From Candidatus Cloacimonadota bacterium (lineage in GTDB: Bacteria > Cloacimonadota > Cloacimonadia > Cloacimonadales > Cloacimonadaceae): DNA of 64,000 nt. The translations under genes and the position numbers were made by a program. The stretch covers positions 62,001 through 126,000 of the forward strand of contig JAKOXG010000004.1 in the NCBI GenBank assembly GCA_029781115.1, given 5' to 3'. Shown in pieces: positions 10,644 to 60,854 of this stretch (the stretch's first letter is position 1; every line of letters begins with the position of its first letter). The notes beneath the pieces are model-generated. The model searched no databases. It had not been told where the DNA came from and saw only the letters and a program-made list of their open reading frames with translations.

Positions 10644-10753
10644 TAACTTCCAGCGTCAAAATACTCGTAATTCTCACCCCTTTTGTTACCCTTCCTTTTT
10701 CCCAAAATAGTGCTCGTTTTCAGGACATAATTTGTTTGCAATAAACCATAATT

Positions 10754-11040
10754 TGCAAAACATTTGACTTTTCACGCCGGCTTGCCGCCCTCCAAAAGGT
10801 GCCTCAGCCCCTGCTCGGCTCCTCCTCCTAACTTACTACTTTCTTACTGCTTACTTGGTCGAGGAGCAAGAGGGTAGCAGGGAAGGAGTGGGGAGGCCGC
10901 ATGGAATGGGCATTTGAGGAGGGTCGAAAACGGCAGTTATGCGTGACCGATTGTTTCTTTGAGGTCAAATGTTGATTTTAGGCTTGCCTTTTCTGTTGTC
11001 GAGACTCAGCAATTAATTCCTACTAAATTGGTAGGTGAAT
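10754..11040 (+). repeat. Dispersed intergenic repeat, copy A (forward)
   Basis: A copy of a roughly 290-bp family (others at 33025-33317, 50338-50625, 60346-60637). From left to right: a CATTTGACTTTT box (10760-10771), an imperfect hairpin of about 130 nt (GCCTC near 10801 to GAGGC near 10898) with loop core CTTACTACTTTCTTACTGC, a conserved GGAATGGGCATTTGAGGAGG, the box GGTCAAATGTTGATTTT (about 10961-10978), and a small hairpin CCTAC...GTAGG (about 11019-11035). Homology with copy C may extend left to ATAAACC at 10741. It fills most of the gap between convergent genes (10644-11054). No ORF is conserved. Confidence 0.85.
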
Positions 11041-24361: not shown

Positions 24362-24837
24362 CTCATTCTTTTATTCTTGGAGCAAGCCTAAAATGCTGCG
24401 TATATTTGGCAAGCATTTTATCTCAGCGATGAAAATCAAACCCCACAGACCAAAGACCTCCCTCCATAATATACACTGACGACCTCACTTTGTAGAGAAT
24501 AATCCACAAAATAAAGCCCGTAATCGCTTGCCGGCGTAGGCGATACGATATGGTCAAATATTAACCCCTTCTGGCCGAAAGTAAAATGCCGGCTCGTGCT
24601 GCATCAATAGTAGCTCCTCACAAATGACGCCGCTAACTCACGAAGGGGCTTATAGTTACCCCGAACCATTTCTTCACCTTTTCAACCGAATTTGGTCCCT
24701 GTATCTGGTGGCTGCGATACTACTCAGTACGGTCGCTCTACCAAGCGACCTGACAAATGCAGCTTGCAATTGACAACTTGCCGACGCCGCAGGCCGCATC
24801 CATATAATAACAAAATCCATCATTTTGCACTTTATCC
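24362..24837. other. Noncoding stretch with hairpins between divergent genes
   Basis: No ORF is convincing. It holds GGTCGCT (24731-24737) / AGCGACC (24744-24750), a perfect 7-bp hairpin, and ATCGC (24523-24527) / GCGAT (about 24540-24544). A solo GGTCAAATATT near 24552 resembles the right-hand box of the dispersed repeat, but without the hairpin core. It may be decayed sequence or an RNA. Confidence 0.35.
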
Positions 24838-33024: not shown

Positions 33025-33317
33025 GCCAATCACCCATTAAAATAGTAGGAGATGATTTCAGAACTCTGCCACCGGGAAAAGTCAGGTCAAAATCAATATT
33101 TGACCCATGAGTATAAATCGGTAATGCAAAACTGTCCTTTTCGACCCTCCTCAAATGCCCATTCCATGCGGACTCCTAACTCCTTCCCTGCTGCTCTCCT
33201 GCTCCTTGAGTAGCTAACGAGTAAGAAAGCAGGCAGTTAGGAGGAAGAGCCAAGGGGGAGCAAAAGCACCCCTCGGAGGCTGGTCAACCACTGCTAAAAG
33301 TCAATATTTGCGCATAC
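33025..33317 (-). repeat. Dispersed intergenic repeat, copy B (reverse)
   Basis: Reverse-orientation copy of the family. Boxes are AAAATCAATATTTGACC (about 33090-33106) and AAAGTCAATATTTGCGC (about 33297-33313), with the core hairpin between (CTCCTGCTCCTTGAG to CAGTTAGGAGG). One 5'-arm segment differs from the other copies and forms its own GGGGAGCAAAAGCACCCC-type stem. It lies between the divergent small-membrane-protein gene and rpsO. The rest of that gap (32891-33024 and 33318-33556) shows no gene. Confidence 0.85.
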
Positions 33318-33556
33318 ATCGGGTCTGTGAAAGTAATTGAACGGGCAAAATGGCACGAACCTGGCGGAGAAGCAAAGTGAATGGAAGGTGTGTGAGATCC
33401 AAGAGTGGTGCTTGACCACGATTGTAGACCAGAATTGCGATGCAGTCTGCCTTTCAGCATATCTATGGAGCTCCCCGTCATCTCAATGCTAAAAAGCAAA
33501 AAGCGCCGGATATCAGCCGCCAAAGCAATAAATGCGTCTACAATTGAAAATAAGGC

Positions 33557-42688: not shown

Positions 42689-43081
42689 AAGTCCTCACGG
42701 TTATTCTACTGTTATCTATCGGTGTCACAAAAACAGAGGGGCTTATTCTGTCCACTACTATTTTTGCAATTGTTGCGCATTATAGCACCTTTGGAGGTGA
42801 ACCCGTATTGATTGCAGAGATATAGGAGCATGGCTACTGAGCTGAAGGCAGTGTTCATGTTCAATTTTGTAGATGTTCATCATTGACTCGTCCCTTACTT
42901 ACCCGCCCGGTGATGCCGTGGAGATACTCGGGTTTTTTACGGGAGGATCCGAGTAATATCCGGGAGGCTCAGTAAGGAAGAGGCAGGTAAGGCACATTGC
43001 ACTATCCGGGTTTAGAAATACCGGTAGGTGGCAATTATCTGACCTACCATGAGTGAACATGAGCCGAAGGTAAAAGCAAAG
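42689..43081. other. Noncoding stretch with large cruciform-like inverted repeat
   Basis: No gene is visible. A nested inverted repeat is present: CTTACCCGCC (42898-42907) with GGCAGGTAAG (42982-42991), and ACTCGG (42926-42931) with CCGAGT (42949-42954). It is followed by the perfect hairpin GGTAGGT (43023-43029) / ACCTACC (43042-43048). The layout of large hairpin plus small TAGG-type hairpin resembles the dispersed repeat family, but the sequence does not match it. Confidence 0.5.
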
Positions 43082-50222: not shown

Positions 50223-50337
50223 GCACAATTGTCAAAAACGATATGATTAAAACTTAACACTTGATTTATTCTGCACCCGTTGACCTCAAAAATGTGCCCA
50301 ATTATGGGCTTAAAATGCTTGCATAAACCAGATGATT

Positions 50338-50625
50338 GCGCAAATGTTGACTTTTTGCATGGTCTGGCCGCCCCCTTTGGGACGCCTCAGCCTCCGCTTG
50401 GCTCTTCCTCCTAACCTACTGCTTTCCTACTCGTTACTCGCTCGAGGAGCAGGAGGGTAGTAAGGGCGGGGTTGGGAGGCCGCATGAAATGGGCATTTGA
50501 GAGGGGGCGAAAAGTGCAGTTTCACGTGATATTATTCTGTCAAGTGGTCAAATATTGATTTTGGCTTGGCTTTTTCAGCTGCGGAGGTGCAGAAAAGATG
50601 TCCTACCAATTTAGTAGGAGATTGG
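50338..50625 (+). repeat. Dispersed intergenic repeat, copy C (forward)
   Basis: Reference copy. Left box GCAAATGTTGACTTTT (50340-50355), core hairpin (GCCTC near 50384 to GAGGC near 50476) with loop AACCTACTGCTTTCCTACTC, conserved GAAATGGGCATTTGAG, right box GGTCAAATATTGATTTT (50546-50562), end hairpin CCTAC...GTAGG (50601-50617). It lies between tetR and gltX (both minus). The remaining part of the gap, 50099-50337, shows only the tetR promoter. Homology with copy A may extend left to ATAAACC near 50324. Confidence 0.9.
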
Positions 50626-60345: not shown

Positions 60346-60637
60346 GCCAATCACCTATGAAAATAGTAGGTGATATTCGGACAAGCATGGAGCTGAAATA
60401 GCAGGATGAAAATCAACATTTGACCTTATCCCACAATAAGGTAACAAATAACCGACGTTACAGACCCTCCTCAAAGCCTTTATTCATGCCGCCTCCCAAC
60501 TCCGCCCCTGCTGCTCTCCTGCTCCTCGAGTAAGTAAGCAGTAAGAAAGTAGTAGGTTAGGAGTAGGAGCCAAGTAGGGGATGAGGCGTCCCAAAGAGGG
60601 TAGCCAGACCATGCGAAAAGTCAATATTTGCGCATAC
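60346..60637 (-). repeat. Dispersed intergenic repeat, copy D (reverse)
   Basis: Reverse-orientation copy. The end hairpin ATCACCTA...TAGGTGAT (60350-60374) is a perfect 8-bp stem, and boxes AAAATCAACATTTGACC (60409-60425) and AAAAGTCAATATTTGCGC (60616-60633) are conserved. The core loop reads GTAAGTAAGCAGTAAG. It is in the gap between coaE and the small membrane protein gene (60126-60854). The other parts of that gap, 60126-60345 and 60638-60854, show no gene that I can support. Confidence 0.9.
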
Positions 60638-60854
60638 GGCTGTTTGCAGCAAGCAAAATGAGAGCCAAAATGAGCGTAGTATTCAGGGGAAAATAAGGAG
60701 AAAAACTGTTCTAATAATTGCTGGAATCGTGCCATCATCCTCAGATTGTTTATTCGGCACTTTCAGTATGGCTCTACTGAGCTAATCCATCAAAAACGAA
60801 CATGAGCTTTAGATTATTGATACCTTCCCGGATCGCCATTGCGGCTCTGCGTGT

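Follow-up and report, generated by a model that had tools for sequence, protein, structure and literature searches.

Bacterial intergenic repeats are usually taken as scattered selfish DNA. DNA uptake sequences (USS/DUS), ~10-bp words lying ~1 kb apart, are placed more evenly than chance. We know of no dedicated, regularly placed sequence element that marks supercoil-domain boundaries. REPs/BIMEs, and REPINs with their RAYT (TnpA-REP) transposases, are non-autonomous, high-copy, intergenic palindromic repeats (PMC2817692, PMC3116915, PMC8049555). In enteric bacteria, supercoil or topological domains are ~10 kb long (PMC3420936).

Here we analysed a repeat family, fam1, with four copies in a 64,000-nucleotide stretch of the metagenome-assembled genome of an uncultivated Candidatus Cloacimonadota bacterium (the window; the source genome is called G000). 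fam1 fits no known repeat family, in agreement with an initial annotation of the window; we found no paper on such a repeat, nor anything of the kind described for the phylum. We show that three unrelated families, fam1 among them, jointly hold a regular distance and reuse sites between species, and that a second genus repeats the spacing.

Results

fam1 is a ~325-bp intergenic element

The window had been annotated as containing a dispersed, ORF-free intergenic family of about 290 bp in four copies. An alignment showed that the four copies are homologous along nearly their full length, and none of them contains a transposase or a conserved ORF. To obtain copy borders, we built a profile from 30 copies in the genome; it matched each window copy over 324-328 bp (E 1e-82 to 1e-93). 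The four copies were thus found at the places claimed for them, but their true length is ~325 bp and they start 30-40 bp further left. The copies are as follows.

10717..11040, + strand: fam1 copy A, profile 290 bits; flanked by a radical-SAM gene and a TPR gene, convergent
33027..33353, - strand: fam1 copy B, profile 306 bits; surE on one side and pnp (polynucleotide phosphorylase) on the other (Pfam of neighbours)
50297..50624, + strand: fam1 copy C, the copy initially reported, profile 305 bits; flanked by a TetR-family gene and a Glu/Gln-tRNA synthetase gene
60348..60675, - strand: fam1 copy D, profile 271 bits; adjoins coaE; the weakest match and, as had been noted, the most diverged of the four

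The shared boxes described for the four copies do exist. In copy C they are positioned as follows.

50338..50359, + strand: left box GCGCAAATGTTGACTTTTTGCA, among the most conserved columns of 30 copies
50397..50479, + strand: core inverted repeat; mean identity 83% within G000, 88% within the sister species G005 and 61% between them
50480..50509, + strand: CCGCATGAAATGGGCATTTGAGAGGGGGCG box, conserved inside species, 66% between
50546..50562, + strand: right box GGTCAAATATTGATTTT, whose GGTCAAATATT part is present in fam3 too
50601..50619, + strand: terminal palindrome TCCTACCAATTTAGTAGGA

Conservation is weak at the left end of fam1, GTGCNCATTTTGGGC-TTAATTTGTTTGCA, which is followed by the left box TTTGCGCAAATATTGACTTTTCGC, an inverted-repeat core of ~83 bp (pyrimidine-rich/purine-rich), the box CCGCATGRAATSGGCATTTGAG and a variable stretch. 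The right side consists of the box GGTCAAATATTGATTTT, a CCGGCTTTTTCAGGTG stretch and the palindrome CTCCTACTAnTTTAGTAGGTGAT. The TTGACTTT core of the left box of copy C is retained in G005 and in G002, another congener. The end palindrome measures 17-19 bp. Most copies carry it on the right (type I), a smaller number on the left (type II); across 463 kb it is confined to the elements.

The prediction of very many copies per genome was borne out. An exhaustive pattern scan yielded 76 fam1 copies in the 2.25-Mb genome (34 forward, 42 reverse) and no control matches. Our genome-wide counts come from pattern scans and sequence stretches, and G000 is a draft genome of 22 contigs. In 463 kb of contiguous sequence, a profile search found 21 copies, all essentially full length, and no fragments; the pattern recovered 21/21 of these matches without extras. 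All fam1 copies that we read had an intact centre and none was truncated; a copy interrupted by a gene, such as an autonomous parent would be, was not among them.

The examined copies were all intergenic and showed no orientation bias. Flanking genes took each of their four possible arrangements equally often (11/10/10/10), and no link with the direction of adjoining genes was seen; fam1 is therefore not tied to a promoter or terminator side, nor to neighbouring transcription. Some elements adjoin intrinsic terminators. The neighbours of the window elements are ordinary genes, largely housekeeping.

fam1 occurs in three related species and evolves in concert

By BLASTN, fam1 was limited to three congeners among 61 genomes, so that it is not a repeat common to the phylum. 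Besides the 76 copies in G000, there are 50 in G005 and at least 16 in G002, and fam1 is absent from three other genomes of the same genus. The G005 and G002 families are ~54% identical to that of G000. Scanning ~85,000 genomes for the palindrome returned the fam1-bearing species (in GTDB, USST_metabat.121 and UBA3900, which we equate with G005 and G002) and scattered single matches. No match to fam1 was obtained in phage, plasmid and viral-contig collections.

Mean identity between copies was 0.64 within G000, 0.76 within G005 and 0.54 between the two. A tree of the copies grouped them strictly by species, shared sites included. Hence, fam1 copies undergo concerted evolution inside each species. 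As positions are shared and the tree follows species, the copies are inherited in place, and either they are homogenised per species or related copies of their own genome take their place. In 14 shared G000/G005 pairs, an orthologue-specific signal was detected in the left outer part (P 0.006) and none in the core. G005 also has a young subfamily whose members are 91-93% identical, indicating that it spread recently.

Two further families

Two other families occupy the window; these, and the joint spacing described below, lay beyond the reach of the initial annotation.

24456..24593, + strand: fam3 copy (CCTCYATAATATACACTGACGAYCT...GGTCAAATATT...), the third slot occupant, ~140 bp
42855..43061, + strand: fam2 copy, a long inverted repeat unrelated to fam1; profile core 42902-42988

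fam2, which surfaced in a self-comparison of the 463 kb, is an inverted repeat of ~100 bp with GGAGATACTCGGGTTTTTCCCGGGAGGC in the middle. Among the matches listed, there are 60 copies in G000, 90 in G005 and 2 in G002. A few fam2 copies have longer common flanks ending CTCATGTTCA...TGAACATGAG. fam3 begins with CCTCTATAATATACACTGACGAYCT, carries species-specific letters (ACAC, ACTC, ACCC) and has 24 copies in G000, 23 in G005 and 20 in G002; it overlaps with fam1 in the GGTCAAATATT box alone. Both families are intergenic and interleaved with fam1. The largest gaps of contig C20 contained no inverted repeat that could represent a hidden fourth family.

The families are jointly and regularly spaced

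Within the window, the elements are located at 10.7, 24.5, 33.0, 42.9, 50.3 and 60.3 kb. Genome-wide positions were taken between pattern sites, and the gaps given here are accurate to a few hundred bases. For fam1 alone, the smallest of 58 gaps was 9.83 kb, and in 20,000 random placements the minimum never exceeded 3.26 kb. fam2 alone was also overdispersed (P 1e-4), with a smallest same-family spacing of 6.8 kb, and the two families keep clear of one another (P 2e-4). Together, the three families form 150 slots in G000 with a median gap of 12.8 kb. The coefficient of variation (CV) of the union was 0.49 versus 0.98 for random placement (minimum of 5,000 simulations, 0.76), and the gap distribution peaked at 8-16 kb. 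Only 4 gaps of 1-5 kb were observed versus 42.5 expected; these few pairs run counter to a strict spacing. With a null restricted to intergenic positions, the CV was 0.37 versus 0.84-0.88 simulated (minimum of 4,000 simulations, 0.50). The regularity is therefore not due to the restriction to intergenic gaps. We have next to no doubt that the array of elements is real.

The sister species G005 has 163 elements with a mean gap of 13.2 kb and a CV of 0.42. It contains 20 neighbour pairs less than 1 kb apart, all of them cross-family; same-family pairs this close were absent from both G000 and G005. G012, a genome from another genus, contains 15 copies of an unrelated repeat, ATCCTGCTTGAATCCTGCTTGA, over 200 kb, with a mean gap of 13.4 kb and a smallest gap of 6.2 kb (P for the minimum gap, 6e-4). 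No comparable family was found in 80-100 kb samples of G007, G008, G009 and G041, so that the spacing property is not universal in the order. Taken together, these data suggest that a spacing rule operates across the whole chromosome, for which we know of no precedent among such elements.

As to structure, the G012 repeat (contig C8, 20-220 kb) is intergenic and built of permuted short words ATCCTGCTTGAATCCTGCTTGA. Word-permuted inverted repeats of different sequence (GCGCTATCATTGCGCTATC..., CACAAGGGAATCACC..., CATATCATTCCCTTATCGC...) occur in further Cloacimonadota, downstream of radA in G008 and G011 and in the G014 sample.

Slots are shared between species and change occupants

Collinear contigs of G000 and G005 contain 16 intergenic sites that are occupied in at least one species. 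The same family was present in 5/16, different families in 6/16, and an element in one species only in 5/16, which means that slots can stand empty. The probability of six swaps by chance is about 5e-7 at 115 candidate gaps and 0.002 at 30, both numbers of gaps being estimates. For example, the site of copy A is occupied by fam3 and fam2 in G005, and the fam3 copy at 24456 adjoins a gene that carries fam1 in G005. Swapped sites contained no remnants of the other family above noise.

For about half of 40 G005 fam1 copies, the orthologue of the adjoining gene also adjoins a G000 copy, and most of these pairs agree in orientation. The G005 counterpart of copy C adjoins the same TetR gene in the same orientation, and the pair ranks first of 76 in identity. 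In two of the pairs, both species have the type II form. The interval between radA and an HD-domain gene carries fam1 in three species in identical orientation; in G001, whose RadA is more distant, a 60-nt gap is found in place of the element. Some shared G000/G005 pairs have opposite element orientation. Several of these lie at synteny breakpoints, and so they may reflect rearrangements rather than independent insertions.

Several synteny breakpoints or block inversions between G005 contigs C32, C47, C9 and C17 and G000 contig C10 end at elements of the three families.

Element ends and transposase genes

The left end GTGCNCATTTTGGGC and the right palindrome of fam1 are not inverted copies of each other, i.e. 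there are no terminal inverted repeats. No target duplication was seen, the empty sites of the sister species being too diverged to fix exact borders. A GTAG motif sits within the symmetric end palindrome CCTACTAnTTTAGTAGG and not as an adjacent tag, whereas RAYT-associated REPs have a GTAG or CGTC tag next to their palindrome.

Y1 transposase genes were found in G000 (two) and G002 (one); none was detectable in G005 despite its 50 fam1 copies. Both G000 genes are flanked by GTACGGGCGGTCGC and GTATGGTCGC REPs and not by fam1. Given these other REPs and the lack of detectable Y1 in G005, we reject RAYT as the mobiliser; no other mobilising enzyme was identified for fam1.

The RAYT-like Y1 genes (221 aa) lie at ~41.9-42.6 kb of C20 and ~0.9-1.2 kb of C19 in G000. 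The REPs around them are dense and differ in type between the two genes; downstream of each, at a distance of a few hundred bases, lies a fam3 copy.

Discussion

Different families avoid each other, yet pair up inside a single intergenic gap and are swapped from one species to the other; these three facts are most simply read as a limited set of positions, spaced ~13 kb apart, that accept or keep exchangeable families. We tentatively favour the view that fam1 is a non-autonomous element that shares a chromosome-wide array of intergenic slots, with one slot in roughly 13 kb, with at least two further families, each able to take another's place. The families are probably mobile in origin and would have been multiplied by a putative enzyme. 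A new copy would be retained on landing in a slot, inside the intergenic gap of an older occupant. Cross-family pairs less than 1 kb apart would then be the stage before one of the two occupants is lost, and copies outside slots would be lost or never made. Conversion or turnover could homogenise the copies within each species. The elements would probably be read as DNA by a putative binding protein, via the GTCAAATATT boxes and the palindrome.

An architectural role of the slots is possible, and we hold it with more reserve. The slots would most likely be chromosome-organising positions; because supercoil domains are ~10 kb (PMC3420936), we propose with modest confidence that they correspond to boundaries of supercoil (nucleoid) domains. 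Even more doubtful is the further idea that the chromosome is divided into ~13-kb segments, in which selection keeps the position of an element and not its sequence, and unrelated families take over boundary sites in the course of evolution, each family being homogenised inside a species. If true, these bacteria would possess elements dedicated to marking domain boundaries that can stand in for one another.

A rival explanation is transposition with target immunity. Here the transposase, when selecting its target, would reject sites that lie only several kb from an element already in place, and near saturation this would yield a quasi-regular, functionless array (random sequential packing). 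The sharp minimum distance between copies of one family (9.8 kb for fam1, 6.8 kb for fam2), the gap peak at 8-16 kb, the lack of same-family pairs below 1 kb in two genomes and the young G005 subfamily (members 91-93% identical) are all consistent with it. We nevertheless consider it rather unlikely: one immunity range does not explain both cross-family avoidance at 1-5 kb and the 20 pairs below 1 kb in G005, different families reuse the same gap in two species, and neither a transposase nor end repeats were found.

Another rival is insertion hot spots. According to this explanation, some intergenic positions attract or tolerate any family and same-family neighbours are recombined out, with no selected function. 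Cross-family pairs inside one gap, use of the same gap by different families, proximity of some elements to intrinsic terminators and differing orientation at a few shared sites all speak for it. However, permissive intergenic gaps are far commoner than one per 13 kb, and the null drawn from them gives a CV of 0.84-0.88. Hot spots would themselves have to follow a ~13-kb regularity that lacks an explanation and that recurs, with unrelated sequence, in a second genus; we judge this reading unlikely. Target immunity and hot spots each leave one of the three facts (avoidance, one-gap pairs, swaps) unexplained.

It had also been proposed that the repeats are a structured-RNA family, each copy being transcribed and folded. 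The hairpin core is strong and copy C folds 2.4 sd below shuffles, but the remaining evidence makes this very unlikely. With both curated and lax thresholds, Rfam 15 returned tRNAs and chance matches and no family for fam1. In a covariation test, core base pairs did no better than permuted partners (z 1.0 in G000, 1.4 in G005), double compensatory changes were almost absent, and G-U and A-C changes lacked a consistent skew on either strand. Moreover, orientation is random relative to genes. Finally, an artefact of assembly or incomplete detection is barely credible, even though G000 is a draft of 22 contigs and fam2 positions are those among the matches listed, as the copies are too different to collapse, the independently assembled G005 has the same spacing, and the pattern recovers 21/21 profile matches in 463 kb with no extras and 0 control matches.

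Whether the cause is dedicated domain boundaries, shared hot spots or long-range immunity, the array offers a countable, testable handle on the factors that set the ~10-kb scale of bacterial chromosome organisation.

How do these elements compare with known systems? Like REPs and REPINs, fam1 is high-copy, intergenic, palindromic and non-autonomous, and persists as a population within a lineage. The suggestion that it is REP-like nevertheless fails on size: a REP is 20-40 bp or a REP pair, and fam1 is ~325 bp long and has a single inverted-repeat core of ~83 bp. It fails on the association with RAYT as well, given the 50-copy carrier without detectable Y1 and the other REPs at the RAYT genes. 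A REP family in G000 is clustered, whereas fam1 is regularly spaced. IS200/IS605-derived elements have hairpins close to both ends that a Y1 transposase recognises; fam1 has the right palindrome, its left hairpin is weak, and Y1 is absent from one carrier.

fam1 resembles MITEs in being short, ORF-free, dispersed and present or absent between relatives, and in its young G005 subfamily. A non-autonomous mobile element, as initially suggested, is plausible as its origin. It differs from a plain MITE in the absence of terminal inverted repeats and fragments, in positions common to diverged species and in regular spacing across unrelated families; no parent element was seen among the copies read. 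Uptake sequences are likewise genome-wide signals spread more evenly than chance, but here the elements are ~100-325 bp long, belong to several unrelated families and lie ~13 kb apart. With supercoil domains the likeness is one of scale, the domain length being close to the slot spacing.
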